From a virus: DNA of 22,817 nucleotides. Shown here in pieces: positions 2,578 to 12,465 of the stretch. The position numbers were made by a program, and so were the translations under genes. The notes beneath the pieces were generated by a model. The model searched no databases. It was not told the origin of the DNA and was given only the letters and a program-made list of their open reading frames with translations. Location of the stretch: the IMG/VR virus record IMGVR_UViG_3300032092_000279, positions 1-22,817 of that record. One strand, 5' to 3'. Each line of letters begins with the position of its first letter. Positions within the stretch are counted from its first letter, which is position 1.

Positions 2578-2664
2578 TCCCCTCAACTCTGTAGGGTCTT
2601 GTAAGTTGTTGTTTTTACAGGGAAAATTAAAACAGTTGTCTTTTATTAGGTTTTGATGCATAAT
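2575..2664 (+). repeat. Intergenic promoter cassette, copy A
   Basis: The cassette starts at the gp46 stop codon with TAATCCCCTCA and continues through GTAGGGTC, which matches copy E at 12365. Next comes a hairpin-capable element, GTAAGTTGTTG...TTTACAGGG at 2601-2622, which is nearly identical to copy B at 5031-5053. It ends in a promoter with -35 TTGTCT at 2636-2641, a 17-nt spacer and -10 CATAAT at 2659-2664. The short inverted repeat CTTGTAA/TTTACAGG could form a stem but lacks a following T tract, so it is not called a terminator. Confidence 0.7.
2636..2664 (+). promoter_or_regulatory. Sigma70-like promoter before the 52-aa ORF and VWA gene
   Basis: -35 TTGTCT (2636-2641), a 17-nt spacer and -10 CATAAT (2659-2664). 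The spacer begins TTTATTA, similar to the other cassette promoters. The predicted start is near 2671, giving a short leader with AGGAG ahead of the ATG at 2690. Confidence 0.75.
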
Positions 2665-2689
2665 TCACTCTATTGAATAGGAGATGAAT

Positions 2690-2848
2690 ATGTGGAAAGA
2701 CTTTAGTGATTTTGAAATTGCAGAACTGGCTGGAAAGTATGGTATTGAAGATAGCTTACTTTTTGCAGGTGACTTGAGTCTTATCAATCGTGAAGAGATT
2801 GAAAATGAATTGACTCTTATTGAACATGAATTTGCATTTGGGGAATAA
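2690..2848 (+). CDS. Small acidic phage protein (52 aa), unknown function
   Basis: The start at 2690 (MWKDFSDFE) is chosen because AGGAG at 2679-2683 sits 6 nt before it; an in-frame ATG at 2684 directly abuts the same AGGAG and is less suitable. The 52-residue product is strongly acidic (many Glu and Asp), predicted helical, and ends HEFAFGE. It has its own promoter and lies 8 nt before the VWA gene, so the two are probably co-transcribed. No family is recognised. Confidence 0.7.
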   Translation: MWKDFSDFEIAELAGKYGIEDSLLFAGDLSLINREEIENELTLIEHEFAFGE

Positions 2849-2856
2849 ATAATATT

Positions 2857-5034
2857 ATGGAAATGAAAGCATCTGATCTATCTGCAAGACTTCTGGCTAC
2901 AGAAAATCTTTCTGTCATTCGTGCCAGAGCAAGAACTGCATCTTTCGACATCAAGAGTCGTATCCTGACTTTGCCGATGTGGAAAGATATGACTCCTGAA
3001 ATTGAAGATATGTTGATTGGTCACGAAGTGGGTCATGCCCTTTATACCAACAATGATTATCTTGAACCATTAAAAGATACCCCTAAGTTACACTCATACA
3101 TGAATGTCTTAGAAGATGTTCGTATCGAGAAACTTATCAAACGTAAGTATCCAGGATTGCGCAAACGCATGAACGAAGGATACAAGCAACTCAATGATCG
3201 TGACTTCTTTGGCACGAAACAAGTTCAAGACTTTGACGAACTGTTACTCATTGACAAAATCAATCTCTACTTTAAAGCTGGATTCCAGTGTGGTGTAACA
3301 TTCACACCTGATGAAAAGGCATTTGTGAATCGTGCTGAACGCACTGAAACAGTTGATGAAGTTATTTCATTGGCAAACGATATCTACGCATACTCAAAAC
3401 AGCAAGCTGAAGAGCGTAAGCAACAACAGCAATTCGAAGAAGCTGAAGAGGGTGAAGAAGACGAAGATCCAATTTATGGCGACTTTGATATCGATGAAGA
3501 TGATGACTTTGAAGAACAAGATGGTGACGATGAAGATCTAAAACCATCTAAACAAAACAAACAGTCTGCTCTCCAAAATGACGACAAGTCTGAAGAGGGT
3601 GATGACTTAGAATCAAAAACAGAAAGAGCATTCCAAAATAAATTGGAAGACCTAGCTGATGATTCTACTGAATACAAATACTGGAAATTTGATACTGATT
3701 ACTTCAAAGATCCAGTTATTGGTTACAAACAGATTCTGAATGAAACTAAATCACCTGAGCAATGGGACATTGATAATCCTGATACGATTGACTATCGTAC
3801 TCGCTACATGGACCAAGAACAGAAGGCTAAATTTAAGTCTGCAGAATCAGCTGACTACACTCAGTTTAAGACTGAATCTATTCGTACTGTAAATTATCTC
3901 GTGAAAGAATTCGAGATGAAGAAGTCTGCACAGATGCATAAGCGTGCAACAGTATCAAAGATTGGTTCGTTGGATATGAAGAAAGTCTATGCATATAAAC
4001 TGCAAGACGATTTGTTCAAGCGTGTGACTTCTCTGCCACAAGGCAAAAACCATGGCATGATTCTTCTTGTTGATTGGTCTGGTTCAATGAACGAAGTATT
4101 GAAAGATACTATGAAGCAGGTTATCAACTTGGCTATGTTCTGTAATCGTGTTCAGATTCCATATCGTGTCTATGCATTTACCACTGATTACAACGATAAT
4201 GTGGCACAAACTGCTGAACAACATGAAGCATATCGTGCTTGGAGAACTATAAGACGAGAGCCCAACGATCTGATTGATTGTGCTGATAGATTTCACTTGT
4301 TGGAGTTCTTCAATAACAAAATGTCCACCACTGAATTCAATTCAATGGCTCGTCGTATCCTTGATTATCGTTTTCACTGGAATGAAGGTTACAACACTGG
4401 TGGCACTCCACTGAATGAAGCATTGGTATATTGCTACCATACATTGGGTAAGTTCATCAAGAACAACAACATCGAGAAAACAACTTTCATCACTCTTACT
4501 GATGGTGAGGGTGGTGCATTGAACACCTATTCGTCTGGTCGTTTCGATGACTCTCGCACTGAAATTGTTAATAGTGTTTACAAGCGAATTAAAATTAAGA
4601 ACTTTATCAAAGATGAAGTTACACAGAAGACTTACGAAATTGGTCGCATGTCTGGTAATCAAACTGAGATGATTCTTCGAATGATGAAAGATCGCTACAA
4701 TATTGCAATGGTTGGATTCCATATCTGTCAGAATCGTGGTCGTGATTTGCGTGGTGTTGCACACTCAAACCTGCCTGATTACAAGGGAGATATTTACTCT
4801 CTGATTGAATCTTGGAAAAAAGATTTCAGAACAAATGGCTTTGCATCGGTGAAGAACACTGGTCGTGATGAATTGTTTTTGATTCCACAGGCATCCACTA
4901 AAATTCAAGAGGGTGAACTGGATGTAAAAGCAGATGCAAATGCAAAATCGATCGCCAAGAACTTTGGTAAGTATTTGAATGTTAAAAAGACTAGCCGAGT
5001 CCTGCTCAATCGTTTCGTGGGTCTGGTAGCGTAA
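2857..5034 (+). CDS. CobT-like protein: HEXXH peptidase-like domain, acidic linker and VWA domain
   Basis: The product is 725 aa. Near the N-terminus HEVGHALYT (H56, E57, H60) followed by NVLEDVRIE (E86) looks like a gluzincin-type zinc site. Residues about 190-260 are highly acidic. The C-terminal half has a complete VWA metal-adhesion site: DWSGS (D406, S408, S410), GGTPL (T517) and TDGEGG (D549). The acidic-linker plus VWA layout is that of CobT-like subunits, which partner MoxR/CobS-type AAA+ ATPases; such a gene follows at 5390. Family knowledge: these pairs act as chelatase- or chaperone-like remodelling machines. A role in cobalamin synthesis is not supported, because the large CobN-type subunit is absent. 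The start at 2857 has only a distant GGGGAA as SD; an ATG at 2863 is an alternative. Confidence 0.85.
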   Translation: MEMKASDLSARLLATENLSVIRARARTASFDIKSRILTLPMWKDMTPEIEDMLIGHEVGHALYTNNDYLEPLKDTPKLHSYMNVLEDVRIEKLIKRKYPGLRKRMNEGYKQLNDRDFFGTKQVQDFDELLLIDKINLYFKAGFQCGVTFTPDEKAFVNRAERTETVDEVISLANDIYAYSKQQAEERKQQQQFEEAEEGEEDEDPIYGDFDIDEDDDFEEQDGDDEDLKPSKQNKQSALQNDDKSEEGDDLESKTERAFQNKLEDLADDSTEYKYWKFDTDYFKDPVIGYKQILNETKSPEQWDIDNPDTIDYRTRYMDQEQKAKFKSAESADYTQFKTESIRTVNYLVKEFEMKKSAQMHKRATVSKIGSLDMKKVYAYKLQDDLFKRVTSLPQGKNHGMILLVDWSGSMNEVLKDTMKQVINLAMFCNRVQIPYRVYAFTTDYNDNVAQTAEQHEAYRAWRTIRREPNDLIDCADRFHLLEFFNNKMSTTEFNSMARRILDYRFHWNEGYNTGGTPLNEALVYCYHTLGKFIKNNNIEKTTFITLTDGEGGALNTYSSGRFDDSRTEIVNSVYKRIKIKNFIKDEVTQKTYEIGRMSGNQTEMILRMMKDRYNIAMVGFHICQNRGRDLRGVAHSNLPDYKGDIYSLIESWKKDFRTNGFASVKNTGRDELFLIPQASTKIQEGELDVKADANAKSIAKNFGKYLNVKKTSRVLLNRFVGLVA

Positions 5035-5093
5035 GTTGTTGATTTTACAGGGGTAAATTAGGTGTTGTCTTTAATTGCAAATTAGGGCATAAT
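5031..5093 (+). repeat. Intergenic promoter cassette, copy B
   Basis: It overlaps the VWA stop codon. GTAAGTTGTTGATTTTACAG, then GGG, at 5031-5053 repeats copy A (2601-2622) with one internal change. It stands 34 nt before the -35, compared with 35 nt in copy A. It ends in TTGTCT, 17 nt, CATAAT. Confidence 0.7.
5065..5093 (+). promoter_or_regulatory. Sigma70-like promoter before the small ORF at 5100/5124
   Basis: -35 TTGTCT (5065-5070), a 17-nt spacer whose second half is AAATTAGGG, and -10 CATAAT (5088-5093). The expected transcription start, about 7 nt downstream, falls on or next to the ATG at 5100. Confidence 0.8.
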
Positions 5094-5099
5094 AGTTGT

Positions 5100-5294
5100 A
5101 TGATTAATACTGAAAGTGAATTTATGACTGACCTTGAACTTATTGCTACCTTATCCTTTACCTCTGAAAATGGCTTGCTTCGTGCTACCTTTCCTAATGG
5201 TGCTGGTTATTATGAAATTGAGGGTTCTACTCTCCGCTGTTTTGAAATTTGTTCTGATGGTTCTTACGTGTGTGAAACAAAAACCCTCACCTGA
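5100..5294 (+). CDS. Small phage protein (64 aa, or 56 aa from 5124), unknown function
   Basis: The first ATG (5100) lies six bases after the -10 element and would give a leaderless message. The second in-frame ATG (5124, MTDLELIATL) has only a weak GAAAG upstream. The product has alternating hydrophobic and polar stretches suggesting a small beta-rich fold: LRATFPNGAGYYEIEG, then a Cys-containing C-terminal half (CFEICSDGSYVCE). It lies between the VWA and AAA+ genes with a promoter on each side, so it may be an accessory of that module. No family is recognised. Confidence 0.65.
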   Translation: MINTESEFMTDLELIATLSFTSENGLLRATFPNGAGYYEIEGSTLRCFEICSDGSYVCETKTLT

Positions 5295-5345
5295 GTGGGG
5301 TTATTGCAATTAATGTTTGTCTTTAATTGCGATTTAGGGAATAAT
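5281..5345 (+). repeat. Intergenic promoter cassette, copy C, with hairpin and palindrome
   Basis: A hairpin formed by AACCCTCAC, loop CTGA and GTGGGGTT (one bulged T) spans the stop codon of the small ORF. It is followed by the near-palindrome TTATTGCAATTAA at 5301-5313 and then TTGTCT, 17 nt, AATAAT. The palindrome ends 3 nt before the -35, the same spacing as in copies D and E. Confidence 0.7.
5317..5345 (+). promoter_or_regulatory. Sigma70-like promoter of the AAA+ (CobS-like) gene
   Basis: -35 TTGTCT (5317-5322), a 17-nt spacer ending TTTAGGG, and -10 AATAAT (5340-5345). The predicted start near 5352 gives a leader of roughly 40 nt before the ATG at 5390. Confidence 0.75.
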
Positions 5346-5389
5346 AATCGTTATCGTTGATTGAAAGTAGTTTTATTATGGAGAATGTG

Positions 5390-6553
5390 ATGGCAAAAAC
5401 TGATACGCAGTTTCGTGATTCGTTTGAATCAAAAATGAGAGAGATGTACCCTGACACTGCCACTAAAGGCACTGTGAGTCGTCCAGAACTTTTGGATGTT
5501 ATGAAAGCACTAAAGACAGAGAAGTATCCTCTTTGGCTTATGAAGAATAAAGTTGGTCGTGGCTTGTACGCTATTGATGGTGGTGCAACCCCTGTTATTG
5601 GAAACACTGCATTGAAAGCACAACCTGTGAAACAAGAATCGTTTAAGGTGGACTACTCTGATATCTCAGCCCTAGTTCCAAAGAAAGATCCAAACTTTGT
5701 ACCATTCGGTAACTATTCCGATTTGGAAAACATTATCAAGTCTGAAATCTTTTATCCTGCATACATCTCTGGTCCAACTGGTAATGGTAAGTCAACAATG
5801 GTTGAACAGATTTGTGCCAAACACAAACGTCCATTGATTCGTGTCAACCTAAACATGATGACAGACGAGGAACAACTCATTGGATCCAAGACACTGGAAG
5901 ACGGTAACGTAGAGATCGTGGAGGGTCCAGTCCTTATTGCAATGCGCAATGGCACTGCACTCTTGCTTGACGAGATCGATGCAGGTTCAGCCAATACGTT
6001 GCTTTGCTTGCAACCTATTCTTGAGGGTAAACCATACTACTTCAAACTCAAGAATGAGATGATTGTTCCAGCTGAAGGATTCAACATCTTTGCCACTGCA
6101 AATACTAAGGGTAAGGGTTCAGACGATGGTCGCTACATTGGCACCAACGTATTGAACGAAGCATTCTTGGAGCGATTCGCTGTAACCTTCGAACAGGATT
6201 ATCCTAATGCGAAGGTCGAAGTTAAGATTATTAAGAATCTCATGGAAACTTATGGCTGTCTAGATGCCGAGTTTGCAGAGACACTCGTAAAGTGGGCTGA
6301 AGCAATTCGTCGTACTTTCGAGGATGGTGGTGTGGATGAAACTATTACGACTCGTCGTATGATTCACATTGTTCGTGCGTTTGCGATTTTCAAGAATCAG
6401 CAGAAAGCAGTTGAGTTGTGTTGCAATCGTTTCGATGCTGCAACGAAAGCTGCATTCATCGACTTGTTCGATAAAGTTGCAAACCCTCAACCTGAACCTG
6501 TTGCAGTTGTGGAAGCACCTGCTCCAAGTCCTTCAGACGAGGTGCCATTCTAA
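5390..6553 (+). CDS. cobS-like: MoxR/CobS-like AAA+ ATPase with N-terminal winged-helix-like domain
   Basis: The start at 5390 (MAKTDTQF) is preferred because GGAG at 5380-5383 lies 6 nt upstream; an ATG at 5378 and a TTG at 5357 are in frame but poorly placed. The product is 387 aa. Walker A GPTGNGKST is at 128-136, Walker B LLLDEIDAG has D194/E195, and a sensor-type FATANT follows, typical of MoxR/CobS ATPases that open a gated site in a hexamer. The N-terminal 60 residues end in YPLWLMKNKVGRGLY (46-60), which resembles residues 57-72 of the protein encoded at 6664. The Pro-rich C-terminus ends SDEVPF. The VWA protein at 2857 is its likely partner. The substrate is unknown. Confidence 0.9.
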   Translation: MAKTDTQFRDSFESKMREMYPDTATKGTVSRPELLDVMKALKTEKYPLWLMKNKVGRGLYAIDGGATPVIGNTALKAQPVKQESFKVDYSDISALVPKKDPNFVPFGNYSDLENIIKSEIFYPAYISGPTGNGKSTMVEQICAKHKRPLIRVNLNMMTDEEQLIGSKTLEDGNVEIVEGPVLIAMRNGTALLLDEIDAGSANTLLCLQPILEGKPYYFKLKNEMIVPAEGFNIFATANTKGKGSDDGRYIGTNVLNEAFLERFAVTFEQDYPNAKVEVKIIKNLMETYGCLDAEFAETLVKWAEAIRRTFEDGGVDETITTRRMIHIVRAFAIFKNQQKAVELCCNRFDAATKAAFIDLFDKVANPQPEPVAVVEAPAPSPSDEVPF

Positions 6554-6617
6554 TCCCCTGCAACTTATGGGGTTATTGCAAATAAGACTTGCCTTTAATC
6601 CCATCTTGTTGTATAAT
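6551..6617 (+). repeat. Intergenic promoter cassette, copy D
   Basis: It begins at the stop codon of the AAA+ gene with TAATCCCCTGCAACT and GGGG, like copies A and E. The palindrome TTATTGCAAATAA occupies 6573-6585, 3 nt before -35 TTGCCT; the promoter spacer is 17 nt and the -10 is a consensus TATAAT. Confidence 0.7.
6589..6617 (+). promoter_or_regulatory. Sigma70-like promoter of the 162-aa Lys/Ala-rich protein gene
   Basis: -35 TTGCCT (6589-6594), a 17-nt spacer starting TTAAT, and a perfect -10 TATAAT (6612-6617). The predicted start near 6624 leaves a 40-nt leader with AAGGAA six bases before the ATG at 6664. Confidence 0.8.
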
Positions 6618-6663
6618 AGAACTTGTTGTGTTGGAAATTTGAAAACTTTTTAAGGAATATATT

Positions 6664-7152
6664 ATGTTGAAATTTAATGCTTTGTCTTTGTCTCAAAAAC
6701 GATTTGTTGTTGCAGTGATTGAATCTAATCCTCAATACAAAAAAGATCCTCAGATTACTCTGAAGGAATGTGCTGCAATCTATTACACTCTACGTGACCA
6801 GCGTACTGGTTCTAAGGGTGAGAAGATTGGTTATCCTAACTGGTTGTTCAACAAGAACAAAGTAGAGCGTGGTGTGTATCAGTTGCCAGTTCCTACTGAT
6901 GCCGAGTTGTCTGCTTTTGCAAAAGAAATTGCAGACAAACAGACTGCTCCAGTTGCTAAAGCCAAAGCCAAAGTTGCGAAACTTGCTAAGGCTAAGACTG
7001 TGAAAGCCAAGACTCCTGCAAAGACTGCAGTCGAGAAAGATGAACAGATGGAGATGTCACGTCTTCAGCGAATCATCGATGATTCTGTTGATGTTGATGG
7101 CGATGTCGAAGACTTCAATGCCATCCTACGTGAAAACGGCATCACTGTTTAA
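6664..7152 (+). CDS. Winged-helix-like protein with histone-H1-like Lys/Ala-rich segment (162 aa)
   Basis: Residues 1-75 form a predicted helical domain ending in YPNWLFNKNKVERGVY (57-72). This closely resembles the N-terminal domain of the AAA+ ATPase one gene upstream (YPxWL, NKVxRGxY shared). Residues about 97-121 are a Lys/Ala-rich tract (AKAKAKVAKLAKAKTVKAK) like the tails of histone H1 or bacterial H1-like proteins, and an acidic helical C-terminus follows. AAGGAA lies six bases ahead of the start. The gene has its own promoter and ends at a strong terminator. Inference: a nucleic-acid-binding protein linked to the CobS/CobT-like module. The exact function is unknown. Confidence 0.85.
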   Translation: MLKFNALSLSQKRFVVAVIESNPQYKKDPQITLKECAAIYYTLRDQRTGSKGEKIGYPNWLFNKNKVERGVYQLPVPTDAELSAFAKEIADKQTAPVAKAKAKVAKLAKAKTVKAKTPAKTAVEKDEQMEMSRLQRIIDDSVDVDGDVEDFNAILRENGITV

Positions 7153-7167
7153 TTAGAGTTTACCTTT

Positions 7168-7204
7168 CATCTGGGGTTCTGCCATCGCCCCAGATGATTT
7201 TTTT
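7168..7204 (+). terminator. Rho-independent terminator after the 162-aa gene
   Basis: A perfect 9-bp stem, CATCTGGGG (7168-7176) with CCCCAGATG (7188-7196), an 11-nt loop, and a run of seven T beginning at 7198. It separates the accessory module from the next gene. Confidence 0.9.
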
Positions 7205-7234
7205 CATTTGATGGTTGTTAATTATGGAGTTATT

Positions 7235-7495
7235 ATGTCTAAACAAGAAATGCTTTTGACGCATCTACAAAAAGGTAAAGAGTTTACTGCTAAGCAGATC
7301 AAGTCCTCTTTCGGTATTGCTCATCCAGCTTCTACTATTCGTGACTTGCGTGAGCAAGGCTATTGCGTGTACTCAAACCCAGCAGTTGTGAATGGTGTTG
7401 AAGTTGTTAAGTACCGTATCGGTAAGCCAACTCGTGCTATGGTTGCTCTTGCAGCTGCAGTTCGTGGCTCTTCAGTGTTTACTCGCACTGCCTAA
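7235..7495 (+). CDS. Small helix-turn-helix-like protein (86 aa)
   Basis: The start at 7235 (MSKQEMLL) is set by GGAG at 7226-7229, five bases upstream; an earlier ATG at 7211 and TTG at 7208 are too near the terminator. Residues about 5-50 (LLTHLQKGKEFTAKQI, then STIRDLREQGYCVYSN) read as a helix-turn-helix or winged-helix unit of the kind found in many phage DNA-binding proteins. A beta hairpin (VEVVKYRIG) and an Ala-rich helix follow. It is probably a small regulator or nucleoid-type protein; the target is unknown. No clear promoter was found; it may depend on read-through of the preceding terminator. Confidence 0.75.
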   Translation: MSKQEMLLTHLQKGKEFTAKQIKSSFGIAHPASTIRDLREQGYCVYSNPAVVNGVEVVKYRIGKPTRAMVALAAAVRGSSVFTRTA

Positions 7496-7504
7496 GTGAG
7501 TTAT

Positions 7505-7531
7505 AAATGGGCATTCTCTGAGTGTCCATTT
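7505..7531 (+). other. Intergenic hairpin
   Basis: AAATGGGCA (7505-7513) pairs with TGTCCATTT (7523-7531) over nine positions, including one G-U, around a 9-nt loop. Only TGTCGTTTC follows, so it is at best a weak terminator. It may instead stabilise an mRNA end or the leader of the gene at 7554. Confidence 0.45.
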
Positions 7532-7553
7532 GTCGTTTCATTTGGAGAATAAT

Positions 7554-7883
7554 ATGGCAACCAAAGAAGATATTAAGAAGTCGCAGAATGCCACAACAGG
7601 TGGTCGTAAATTTGATGGTGGTAAACTTCAGTATGGATTACTACCACCACTGGCATTAAAAGCCACTGTAGAAATTCTAACATTTGGTGCGGAGAAATAC
7701 GAACCAGATAATTGGAAGAATGTCCCAGACTCCAAACGTAGATACTTTGATGCAATGCAAAGACATCTGTGGGCATGGAAAGAGGGAGAGCAAAACGATC
7801 CCGAGACTGGCAAGAATCACTTGGCACATGCAATGTGTTGCTTGATGTTCTTGTATGAACACGATGTCAAGTACTCAAAATAA
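7554..7883 (+). CDS. dATP/dGTP diphosphohydrolase-like protein (DUF5664 type)
   Basis: The start ATG at 7554 follows GGAG by 6 nt; the longer in-frame TTG extension is rejected. The product is 109 aa. GGRKFDGGKLQYGLLPPLAL near the N-terminus and the array H71, E79, D82, H89, H92 (HLWAWKEGE, NHLAHAMCC) match the all-alpha nucleotide pyrophosphohydrolase-like family annotated as dATP/dGTP diphosphohydrolase N-terminal domain. Family-based inference: it hydrolyses purine dNTPs or house-cleans nucleotides, adjusting pools next to the replication genes. Substrate specificity cannot be read from the sequence. The gp45 promoter follows immediately. Confidence 0.75.
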   Translation: MATKEDIKKSQNATTGGRKFDGGKLQYGLLPPLALKATVEILTFGAEKYEPDNWKNVPDSKRRYFDAMQRHLWAWKEGEQNDPETGKNHLAHAMCCLMFLYEHDVKYSK

Positions 7884-7885
7884 AT

Positions 7886-7914
7886 TTGTCAAACACCTCG
7901 TTCTGAGGTATAAT
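7886..7914 (+). promoter_or_regulatory. Sigma70-like promoter of gp45, with inverted repeat in the spacer
   Basis: -35 TTGTCA (7886-7891), a 17-nt spacer and a perfect -10 TATAAT (7909-7914). The spacer holds the inverted repeat ACCTC (7895-7899) / GAGGT (7905-7909), whose last base is the first T of the -10. Confidence 0.85.
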
Positions 7915-7955
7915 GTTTTATACATAGTAATGTAATCATTTGAATGGAGAAAGTA

Positions 7956-8615
7956 ATGAAACTTAGTAAAGAAACCACTGCCCTAATTAAAAACTTTGCT
8001 GGAATTAACAGCAATCTACTTTTAAAGAGTGGCAATAAACTCGCAACAATCTCATCACAGAAAAACGTGATGGCTGATGCGACAGTAACAGAAACATTCC
8101 CTGACTTTGGAATCTACGATCTCAATGAGTTCTTGGGTGCTATGTCTTTGTTTGACGATCCTGAATTGGACTTTCAAGAGAAGTATGTTTCAATTAGTCA
8201 AGGTAGTATGAAGATTAAGTTCTTTGCTGCAGACGCATCTGTATTGGTCGCACCACAAAAAGCCATCACATTCCCTGAAGCAGAAATCAACTTCACGATG
8301 TCTGCTGGTATGTTGAATATGATTAATAAGACTGCATCTGTTCTACGTGCATCTGATGTATCAATTGTTGGTGATGGCACTAATGTTATTGCAGTTGTTG
8401 GTGATAAGAAGAATGTTACTGGTAACTCTTTTAGTGAATCTGTTGGTGCTACTGATAAGACTTTCAAAGTCAATCTGAAAGTAGAAAACCTAAAGATGCT
8501 TCCAGGTGATTATCAAGTATCAATCTCAAGTAAGAAAATCTCTCGTTTTAAATCTCCATCAAGCGACTTGGTATATTATGTTGCAGTAGAAGCTGATTCT
8601 ACATTTGAATTCTAA
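7956..8615 (+). CDS. gp45: Sliding clamp, T4 gp45 family
   Basis: The start at 7956 (MKLSKETT) is chosen because GGAG at 7946-7949 lies 6 nt upstream; the ATG at 7944 overlaps that SD. The product is 219 aa, against 228 aa for T4 gp45. The N-terminal LSKETTALIKNFAGINSNLLLKSG pattern, the DFGIYDLNEFLGAMSLFDDPEL segment and the C-terminal RFKSPSSDLVYYVAVE strand are typical of phage processivity clamps. Family role: a trimeric ring that tethers gp43 to DNA; in T4 it is also the coactivator of late transcription. Clamp-loader genes follow directly. The promoter of gp44 has its -35 within the last codons of this gene. Confidence 0.95.
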   Translation: MKLSKETTALIKNFAGINSNLLLKSGNKLATISSQKNVMADATVTETFPDFGIYDLNEFLGAMSLFDDPELDFQEKYVSISQGSMKIKFFAADASVLVAPQKAITFPEAEINFTMSAGMLNMINKTASVLRASDVSIVGDGTNVIAVVGDKKNVTGNSFSESVGATDKTFKVNLKVENLKMLPGDYQVSISSKKISRFKSPSSDLVYYVAVEADSTFEF

Positions 8616-8633
8616 ATGACGAGAGGGTATAAT
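8605..8633 (+). promoter_or_regulatory. Promoter of gp44 with the -10 inside a perfect inverted repeat
   Basis: -35 TTGAAT (8605-8610, inside the gp45 coding end), a 17-nt spacer and -10 TATAAT (8628-8633). The -10 forms the loop of a perfect 7-bp inverted repeat, GAGAGGG (8621-8627) / CCCTCTC (8634-8640). As RNA this could be a hairpin, but no T tract follows. Confidence 0.7.
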
Positions 8634-8667
8634 CCCTCTCTATTCTTTGTTATGTTTGGAGATTTAT

Positions 8668-9621
8668 ATGATTGAAAGTCGTGATGAACAGTTTCTGTGG
8701 GTGGAGAAATACCGTCCACAGAAAATTGATGATTGTATCCTACCAGAGTCTTTGAAAAAGACTTTCAAGGATTATATTGCACAGGGTGAACTACCACACT
8801 TTTTACTTTGTGGTACTGCTGGTGTGGGTAAAACTACCGTAGCCAAAGCACTGTGTAATGAGATTGGTGCAGAGTATGTGATTCTTAACGGATCGGATAC
8901 TGGTGGTCACATTGATACACTCCGTACTACCATTAAGGGTTTTGCCACATCTGTATCTTTGACTGATGCTAAGAAAGTTATTATCTTAGATGAAGCAGAT
9001 TATCTACAGGCTAACTCTACTCAGCCAGCACTCCGTAATTACATGGAGGAGTTTTCGGCTAACTGTCGCTTTATCTTTACTGCTAACTATAAGAATCGTA
9101 TCATTGAACCCATCCACAGTCGTTGTGCTGTGATTGAATTCAAGATCGATAATAAAGAAAAGCAAGAGATCGCTGCAGCATTCTTTAAACGAGCAACCAC
9201 TATTCTCAAGCAAGAGAATATCGAGTTCGATCCTAAAGTCGTAGCTGAACTTGTCACGAAACACTTTCCTGATTATCGTCGCATTCTAAACGAACTACAA
9301 CGCTATTCTGTTTCAGGTAAGATTGACTCAGGTATCCTAGTCAATATGTCACAAGAGTCTTTTAAAGGTTTAGTTAAACTGATGAAAGACAAAGACTTCA
9401 CTGAGGTTCGTAAGTGGGTTGCCAAGAACTCTGATGCAGATACAACTGCACTGTTCCGTGAATTTTATGACACTGCCACTACTAATATGGATGCCAATAG
9501 TATTCCGCAGATGATTCTTATTTTGGCAGACTATCAATATAAAGCAGCATTTGTTGCTGACCATGAACTAAATATTATGGCAGCACTAACTGAGATTATG
9601 GCTCAGTGTAAATTCAAATGA
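8668..9621 (+). CDS. gp44: Clamp loader large subunit, T4 gp44 family (AAA+)
   Basis: The start at 8668 (MIESRDEQFLWVEKYRP) is supported by GGAG six bases upstream and by length: 317 aa, against 319 for T4 gp44. The RFC-box-like WVEKYRP is at 11-17, Walker A GTAGVGKT at 49-56, Walker B ILDEAD with D108/E109, and the SRC arginine-finger motif at 151-153, all in clamp-loader order. Family role: with gp62 it forms the 4:1 ATPase that opens and loads the gp45 ring. A separate promoter upstream allows expression independent of gp45. Confidence 0.96.
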   Translation: MIESRDEQFLWVEKYRPQKIDDCILPESLKKTFKDYIAQGELPHFLLCGTAGVGKTTVAKALCNEIGAEYVILNGSDTGGHIDTLRTTIKGFATSVSLTDAKKVIILDEADYLQANSTQPALRNYMEEFSANCRFIFTANYKNRIIEPIHSRCAVIEFKIDNKEKQEIAAAFFKRATTILKQENIEFDPKVVAELVTKHFPDYRRILNELQRYSVSGKIDSGILVNMSQESFKGLVKLMKDKDFTEVRKWVAKNSDADTTALFREFYDTATTNMDANSIPQMILILADYQYKAAFVADHELNIMAALTEIMAQCKFK

Positions 9622-12364: not shown

Positions 12365-12432
12365 TAATCCCCTCAGACTCGTAGGGTCATTTGCAAATAC
12401 TTGTTGTCTTTAATTCCGTTTTAGGGCATAAT
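12365..12432 (+). repeat. Intergenic promoter cassette, copy E
   Basis: It starts with TAATCCCCTCAGACTC and GTAGGGTC, as in copy A after gp46, although here no gene ends at this TAA. The palindrome CATTTGCAAATAC is at 12388-12400, ending 3 nt before -35, as in copies C and D. It ends in TTGTCT, 17 nt, CATAAT. Confidence 0.75.
12404..12432 (+). promoter_or_regulatory. Sigma70-like promoter of the 12466 gene and downstream unit
   Basis: -35 TTGTCT (12404-12409), a 17-nt spacer starting TTAATT and ending TTTTAGGG, and -10 CATAAT (12427-12432). The predicted start near 12439 leaves a leader of about 27 nt with AGGA nine bases before the ATG at 12466. Confidence 0.8.
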
Positions 12433-12465
12433 AGTTATATTATGATGAGAAAAGGAAATGTGAAT

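Follow-up and report, generated by a model that had tools for sequence, protein, structure and literature searches.

The cobS gene is counted as a core auxiliary metabolic gene of cyanophages and is often cited as vitamin B12 metabolism carried by phages. Whether such a gene and its VWA partner serve that purpose is the question raised by a T4-like phage contig, of which a 22,817-nucleotide stretch (IMGVR_UViG_3300032092_000279; the window, below) was analysed. Its plus strand encodes p54, a VWA protein, p64, a MoxR/CobS-type AAA+ ATPase and p162 (Table 1); all of these ORFs, reported in an initial annotation together with residues H56, E57, H60 and E86 and a VWA metal site, were located. Our analysis suggests, with slightly better than even confidence, that the pair is best read as a remodelling metallopeptidase machine of the replication/recombination stage, its peptidase activity being predicted. 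An ATP-driven, metallopeptidase-like machine would be a better reading of the phage cobS pair than B12 metabolism and, if this is true, the function assigned so far is wrong for a pair that hundreds of sequenced marine phages carry, and for its plasmid cousins.

Table 1. Features of the locus, with positions in the window
Feature	Position	Strand	Basis or description
Promoter of p54 and VWA gene	2636..2664	+	sigma-70-type, TTGTCT-17-CATAAT; promoter scan
p54	2684..2848	+	54-aa conserved ORF, stops just upstream of VWA gene
VWA protein	2857..5034	+	725 aa; PHROG 459 'peptidase', E 4e-184
Gluzincin-like domain (predicted), residues 1-197	2857..3447	+	model pLDDT 92.2 and PDB fold matches
HEVGH, residues 56-60	3022-3036	+	
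N83 to D87, including E86	3103-3117	+	
Acidic disordered linker, residues ~198-248	3448..3600	+	pLDDT <50 at 199-248
VWA domain	4048..5034	+	MIDAS D406, S408, S410, T517, D549
Promoter before p64	5065..5093	+	resembles AAA+ gene promoter; promoter scan
p64	5100..5294	+	64-aa ORF, private to window contig
Promoter of AAA+ gene	5317..5345	+	sigma-70-type, TTGTCT-17-AATAAT; promoter scan
MoxR/CobS-type AAA+ ATPase	5378..6553	+	PHROG 249 'porphyrin biosynthesis', E 2.7e-106
Promoter of p162	6589..6617	+	sigma-70-type, TTGCCT-17-TATAAT; promoter scan
p162	6664..7152	+	162 aa, AAA+ N-terminal domain and Lys/Ala-rich stretch

The pair and its neighbours in phages

The VWA protein and the ATPase match PHROG 459 and PHROG 249, respectively, and are encoded next to each other. 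The ATPase, whose start is uncertain (5357/5378/5390: ATG at 5378, or ATG at 5390 after GGAG), also matches the AAA_5 (2.5e-17) and CbbQ_C (1.4e-5) profiles and the structures of CobS and CbbQ/NorQ. Profile matches and adjacency therefore agree with the initial description of a CobS/CobT-like MoxR AAA+/VWA couple. Among the 135 phage loci with enough downstream sequence, the AAA+ gene follows the VWA gene at 129, with a median gap of 96 bases, and six show no AAA+ neighbour, which bears out the conserved linkage that had been proposed as a check. Interruptions in L048 and L055, which resemble a single in-frame stop and a deletion or assembly fault, were set aside.

The pair is not new. It is already present in PHROGs, PMC7824862, PMC8651126 and PMC7029224, and is a standard, uncharacterised component of cyanophages and pelagiphages. 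In these isolates the 'peptidase' and 'CobS' genes (T4-GC 146 and 150) belong to the identical families and have the same order and gp46-gp45 location, although the VWA protein of the window is only ~28-37% identical to theirs and the ATPase roughly 51-58%, and p54 and p162 are detected in closer relatives only. The pair lies between gp46 and gp45 in S-PM2, P-HM2, HTVC008M and Ochrobactrum phage OC, and outside this interval in DLP6. T4-like gene clusters stay conserved for many reasons, a caveat on any argument from neighbourhood. A MoxR-VWA pair with an N-terminal metallopeptidase has also been reported in group 2.2 jumbo phages (Iyer et al. 2021, PMC7824862); its architecture, compared by the text description only, matches that of the window.

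The two small ORFs, both suggested to be matched accessory parts, fared differently. p54 is syntenic in most relatives whose sequence extends that far; two of its homologues, searched against PHROG, gave no match. For p64, matches were confined to the window and L001, a copy of it, and relatives carry ~100 bases of promoter and leader at that position. Since it has no counterpart in relatives, p64 is rejected as a component and is, judging by these comparisons, an insertion or a spurious ORF outside the conserved machine. p162 is syntenic in close relatives and, as initially described, shares a domain with the N-terminus of the ATPase (approximately the first 75 residues; hhalign probability 94%, E 1.3e-7); a PDB sequence search with p162 found no match. 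A Pfam VIT match in p162 (4e-4) was set aside as spurious because it is below cut-off and falls in the Lys/Ala-rich region.

The VWA protein and its relatives on mobile elements

The N-terminus of the VWA protein is predicted, from sequence conservation and a structural model, to be an intact gluzincin-like zinc-peptidase domain. A set of 25 proteins, with identity down to ~21%, shows no variation at H56, E57, H60, N83, E86 or D87; every one of 135 full-length phage loci, some of which share a contig, keeps HExxH and NxxED, so that the loss in homologues that would have spoken against the domain is not seen; and H56, E57, H60, T64, N83, E86, D87, R89 and G100 are kept in 82 phage and bacterial N-termini. 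Conservation of the active-site residues across these three samples is far beyond chance. In the model, HEVGH lies on helix 47-63 and N83, E86 and D87 on helix 76-97, and the leading PDB fold matches are nearly all zincins, with a top probability of 1.00 and E-values of 0.036 or worse. For residues 1-190 the nearest solved folds, also with weak E-values, are the minigluzincins jannalysin, abylysin and selecase, together with ArdC and PprI/IrrE, all of which, unlike the phage protein, lack a fused VWA domain. A PDB sequence search with the zincin profile gave no match. The probably zincin-like fold of the model is consistent with the gluzincin assignment first made from the motif. The 'peptidase' label of the VWA partner, which PMC8651126 regarded as a mistake, is backed by the active-site residues.

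The remainder of the protein also agrees with the initial description, the acidic linker being modelled as disordered and the MIDAS complete (D406-x-S408-x-S410, T517, D549). The strict MIDAS pattern is matched in 131 of the 135 phage loci, and in Foldseek the VWA model matches the NorD VWA domain in NorQ complexes and the Midasin MIDAS. NorQ/NorD, CbbQ/CbbO and RavA/ViaA likewise combine a MoxR AAA+ protein with a MIDAS-bearing VWA partner; the VWA partners in these three couples are not known to have a zincin domain. For NorD a finger-in-pore mechanism has been described (PMC9976466).

Related pairs occur outside phages. An HExxH-bearing, CobT-like VWA protein and a MoxR ATPase are encoded near ssb, recT/bet and an exonuclease gene in SXT/R391-type elements (the s067-s070 region), in IncC and in another conjugative plasmid, and a comparison of the N-terminal profile from phages with that from bacteria gives an alignment E-value of 1e-19. 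The SXT/R391 and IncC sets resemble the phage pair but have DUF3150, and often another gene, in between, adjoin ssb-recT-exo, lack p162 and lie outside a phage replication cluster. IncHI2 carries an ATPase-DUF3150-VWA set with no annotated recT close by, and cousins are found on over two thousand plasmid records.

Cobalt insertion, virion assembly and host take-over

A role for CobST has been proposed in archaeal tailed viruses and others (PMC8651126), in which viral CobST and a host CobN would raise cobalamin levels, for example for ribonucleotide reductase. This proposal matches the standard annotation, and the ATPase does resemble CobS, CobS/CobT being another AAA+/VWA couple. However, the ATPase scores 91.1 bits against TIGR01650 (CobS), far below the cut-off of 558.55; the window VWA protein matches neither CobT profile, PF06213 or PF11775, and both are matched by one of the 25 members of set A1. 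True CobT also lacks the HExxH that is universal in the phage proteins: of 30 genuine cobaltochelatase CobT proteins, 29 show no such motif, and the sole exception is HEPAH in L270, an open frame that is longer than usual (951 aa). CobN was not found in 12 complete or near-complete related phages (phage genomes only), eight of nine related phages encode a class I, B12-independent ribonucleotide reductase, and six of eight hosts of the SXT-type cousin have no CobN-type protein. Absence of CobN from the 22.8-kb window itself carries little weight. On profiles, zinc motif, CobN and reductase class the identity of the pair as a cobalt chelatase is rejected, as the initial annotation had anticipated, and a helper role in cobalt insertion is very unlikely. 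Homology of the N-terminus to CobT rests on a bacterial bridge only, since the direct comparison of phage and CobT profiles is non-significant (E 0.04) and it is the ICE proteins that tie the CobT N-terminal region to the family (PF06213, 1.3e-12). As cellular CobT, with a related domain but without the motif, still works with CobS, the zincin domain might be a structural or recognition module in a pure remodelling chaperone; but even very divergent phages show no change at any ligand or catalytic residue, E57 included, a constancy that would be needless in a scaffold, and we regard this as the most improbable reading of all.

For the jumbo-phage pair, Iyer et al. 2021 proposed a role for the MoxR-VWA couple in the late stage of infection, namely to fold or process structural proteins, by analogy with the tail system of Acidianus two-tailed virus (PMC7824862), and phages often need maturation proteases. 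In this phage group, however, TTGTCT-17-TATAAT-like sigma-70 promoters of early/middle type precede p54-VWA, AAA+, p162, gp45, gp44 and uvsX, and the pair lies in the replication cluster. No T4-type late promoter NATAAATA was found at the usual distance from the pair genes; the AATAAATA at 2844 shares bases with the stop codon of p54 and lies 13 bases upstream of the VWA ATG. Upstream of p54 homologues, a -10-like NATAAT is present in 36 of 39 distinct regions, against 9.1 expected from shuffles, and no late promoter was found in the 39. In a 161-kb relative, strong promoters of the sigma-70 kind precede eight of 25 ORFs in the replication region but none of the 31 in the structural region (Fisher p 0.0008), and late-type boxes precede seven of those 31. 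A late virion gene class is rejected on these promoters. Conjugative plasmids and integrative elements, which carry relatives of the pair, make no virion, and this also counts against virion assembly; the pair is probably not a virion-assembly factor, and we consider that role unlikely. Early-type promoters, and an occurrence on phages, plasmids and ICEs alike, would also suit early action on the host, in which the machine removes or cuts a defence or nucleoid protein; the antirestriction protein ArdC, to which the fold is weakly similar, points the same way. Yet defence-specific factors are seldom so very strongly conserved or part of the core genome, and on mobile elements the linkage is specifically to recombination genes. 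A search of the PADLOC defence families returned no meaningful match, and a defence-family identity was dropped on that result. Host take-over or counter-defence is accordingly rather unlikely.

A putative replication-stage machine

The remodelling or proteolytic machine predicted in the initial annotation is supported by the domains, the conservation of the active site and the conserved pairing. The target suggested there, possibly a host protein or the nucleoid, stays a candidate; promoters and neighbours indicate DNA replication and recombination more broadly. In the replication-stage machine that we favour, the AAA+ ring would engage the VWA domain in the way that NorQ engages NorD, and the MIDAS site would grip the target. 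ATP hydrolysis by the ring would then pull or open the target, which the zincin domain may clip. p162, with the N-terminal domain of the ring protein, is a possible competing or bridging adaptor. The likeliest targets, and this is the weakest step, would be DNA-bound proteins, from phage or host, while the phage replicates or recombines its DNA. Counting against this reading are the six loci with no AAA+ neighbour, the position of the pair in DLP6, the IncHI2 set with no annotated recT close by, and the modest effect of deleting s067, s068 or s070 in SXT, which lowered transfer by no more than 10-fold (PMC2791158).

More tentatively, the phage and bacterial pairs may represent one mobile, AAA+-driven metalloprotease dedicated to DNA recombination and replication intermediates and common to T4-like phages, ICEs and conjugative plasmids; CobT would then be a relative of it that has lost the zinc site.

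Domains, partner genes and neighbourhood

The VWA protein and AAA+ ATPase encoded by this 22.8-kb IMG/VR virus contig belong to a conserved machine that is real, already catalogued and partly described; computational analysis establishes its domains, conserved catalytic residues, pairing and predicted promoter class. The contig bears a T4-type replication cluster in the order gp47, gp46, the p54/VWA/AAA+/p162 region, a dATP/dGTP diphosphohydrolase-type gene, gp45, gp44, gp62/regA-like genes, hsp20, ligase, gp43, uvsX and gp41, as read from the ORF list with Pfam and PHROG searches on part of the genes; this order parallels that of phage relatives. Its polymerase is nearest to those of marine viruses and cyanophages (~54%), phage isolates resemble the contig only slightly at the nucleotide level, and a tRNA scan of the window found no tRNA genes.

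Features of the VWA/AAA+ region and of two related loci (window ORFs lie on the + strand)
Feature	Record	Position	Length	Description
p54	window	2684-2848	54 aa	small ORF
VWA protein	window	2857-5034	725 aa	HEVGH 56-60; N83-x-x-E86-D87; acidic stretch; VWA domain with metal site (MIDAS) D406-x-S408-x-S410, T517, D549
p64 flanks	window	5035-5380		similar sigma-70-type promoter sequence on both sides of p64
p64	window	5100-5294	64 aa	small ORF
AAA+	window	~5378-6553		MoxR/CobS-type ATPase
p162	window	6664-7152	162 aa	
Winged-helix protein	window	7208-7495	95 aa	HTH_39, 2.7e-6
Diphosphohydrolase-type protein	window	7530-7883		PF18909, 5.8e-35; PHROG 801
Promoter-like repeat	window	12402-12443		resembles the p64 flanks
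gp46-to-peptidase spacer	HTVC008M (L081)	6100-8810		three extra genes
DUF3150 protein	locus L222	5436-7258		accompanies the MoxR/VWA pair

The VWA protein matches PHROG 459 'peptidase' (E 4e-184) in profile searches and nothing significant in Pfam. The HEVGH and downstream N-x-x-E-D motifs, acidic linker and intact VWA metal site that the initial annotation had described are all present, and the zinc-motif residues are kept in homologues. Homologues were collected in two IMG/VR scans (158 loci, some sharing a contig); HExxH followed by NxxED occurs in all 135 that are full-length, and the strict MIDAS pattern in 131. Residues H56, E57, H60, N83, E86 and D87, together with D406, S408, S410 and D549 of the MIDAS, are invariant in 25 aligned proteins with identities down to ~21% (including those of S-PM2, HTVC008M, P-HM2, DLP6, Ochrobactrum phage OC and a Rhizobium phage), and the six N-terminal residues are also kept in an 82-sequence alignment that includes bacterial members.

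The N-terminal model (mean pLDDT 92) has three short strands, with HEVGH on helix 47-63 and E86 on helix 76-97. Its leading PDB matches are the minigluzincins jannalysin, abylysin and selecase, as well as ArdC, PprI/IrrE and BlaR1, with Wss1 ranking lower; the best match is weak in E-value (0.036; probability 1.00). The predicted fold suggests a gluzincin-like N-terminus, as proposed earlier. In a viral structure library the strong matches are the protein's own family and phage proteins named CobT-like, followed further down by haloarchaeal virus proteins. The full-length model (pLDDT 76) has a disordered linker, and its VWA region matches the VWA domains of NorD, solved with NorQ, and the MIDAS domain of Midasin.

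The AAA+ protein matches PHROG 249 'porphyrin biosynthesis' (E 2.7e-106) and Pfam AAA_5 and CbbQ_C. Where the sequence continues for 2.5 kb or more beyond the VWA gene (135 loci), the AAA+ open frame follows in 129, a median of 96 bases away, which bears out conserved linkage in related phages. INPHARED holds 463 matching records for the VWA protein and 831 for AAA+; the two sets are equal in size for Synechococcus (365), Cyanophage (61) and Prochlorococcus (24). As first noted, p162 shares a domain with the AAA+ N-terminus. The two small ORFs had been viewed as matched accessories; p54, like p162, is syntenic in close relatives (neither was detected in phage isolates), and the view is not supported for p64, which is private to the window. 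Relatives have one promoter only where p64 is flanked by two, and the p64 region looks like a promoter-plus-ORF insertion; similar promoter sequence recurs at 12402-12443.

The winged-helix gene is kept 3' of p162 in nearly all relatives, and the diphosphohydrolase-type gene keeps its position in most; the family of the latter is presumably that of MazZ, from modified-base phages. The gp46-peptidase spacer is a variable spot, since it holds three extra genes in HTVC008M.

Predicted promoters

A predicted sigma-70-type promoter (TTGTCT/TTGCCT-17-NATAAT) precedes p54, the AAA+ gene and p162, and the same type precedes gp45, gp44 and uvsX; these assignments are consensus matches rather than mapped transcripts. 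Scanning the window gave 16 sites on the + strand and 4 on the other, against ~6 in shuffled sequence. Among relatives, 36/39, 36/43 and 37/43 distinct regions upstream of p54, AAA+ and p162 have a -10-like box (shuffled expectation about 9, 12 and 16), and no late box was found upstream of these homologues in 39, 43 and 43 distinct regions. In a 161-kb relative, sigma-70-type promoters scoring at least 11 precede 8/25 replication-region ORFs versus 0/31 structural-region ORFs (Fisher p 0.0008). Late boxes there precede 7/31 structural versus 0/25 replication-region ORFs (p 0.013), the latter count excluding a box that lies 8 bases ahead of the VWA gene; this contrast is softer than the sigma-70 one, since one of the seven structural boxes is also close to its gene (-13).

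Chelatase, virion assembly or remodelling

The usual annotation implies a cobalt chelatase. HExxH-bearing CobT-like VWA proteins of bacteria, ICEs and conjugative plasmids (here, cousins) link the phage family to CobT: profile comparisons give E 1e-19 between phage proteins and bacterial cousins and 1e-5 between these and CobT, the direct phage-CobT comparison not being significant. A full-length Pfam CobT match to the ICE protein (1.3e-12) shows that the domain is shared. Among 30 genuine CobT proteins (PF06213 scores 267-331 bits), 29 lack HExxH; that of Azospirillum has no counterpart motif at the position of the phage HEVGH, and a CobS-like gene adjoins CobT in the one neighbourhood read. 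Because of this profile chain and the missing motif, CobT looks, from sequence, like a relative that has lost the zinc site. CobN is absent from 12 related phages, and a CobN-type protein from 6/8 hosts of the ICE cousin, in keeping with the initial view that cobalt insertion is unlikely; an argument from B12 supply to reductase is weak, since 8/9 phages encode a class I ribonucleotide reductase small subunit. The CobN and reductase evidence goes against the chelatase annotation.

Virion assembly was proposed for group 2.2 jumbo phages, where the VWA partner of a MoxR ATPase has a metallopeptidase at its N-terminus (PMC7824862); a literature search without most subscription journals found no functional test of the pair in a phage. 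Of the readings compared, a replication-stage remodelling peptidase accords best with the evidence, ahead of vitamin B12 metabolism and virion assembly. This is in line with the remodelling or proteolytic complex envisaged initially; cleavage itself is something we only infer. By analogy with NorQ/NorD (PMC9976466), a VWA finger would enter the AAA+ pore and the MIDAS would hold the target. The zincin domain might then cleave that target, and candidate targets would be DNA-bound proteins during replication and recombination.

Cousins on mobile elements

A bacterial genome scan found cousins with HEAAH or HEASH. In Vibrio and many other genera their cluster comprises ssb, recT, YqaJ exonuclease, MoxR ATPase, a further gene, DUF3150, the VWA protein, radC and a primase-like gene, which we infer, from gene order and PMC2791158, to be the SXT/R391 region; removing bet, exo, s067, s068 or s070 singly from SXT reduced transfer by no more than 10-fold (PMC2791158). 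The copies in Methylocaldum, Methylococcaceae, Allochromatium and Azospirillum are more divergent, and most of them still have recT and/or the exonuclease beside them. The same gene set, with HEAAH intact, is carried by IncC and another MOBH plasmid; IncHI2 has the ATPase, DUF3150 and VWA genes, with recT not annotated. Matching plasmid records number 2,326, of which 1,927 are conjugative.

A DUF3150 protein accompanies the MoxR/VWA pair in L222 and its relatives, and many ICE and plasmid copies add a further gene without a Pfam match. Phage-type copies (L169-L186) turn up as well in bacterial and archaeal genome bins, on contigs that are probably of phage origin. In four bacterial cousins (L248, L193, L195 and L197) the zinc motif has one extra residue (HEAGGH in L248, HEGVGH in L195), and these may be natural active-site variants.
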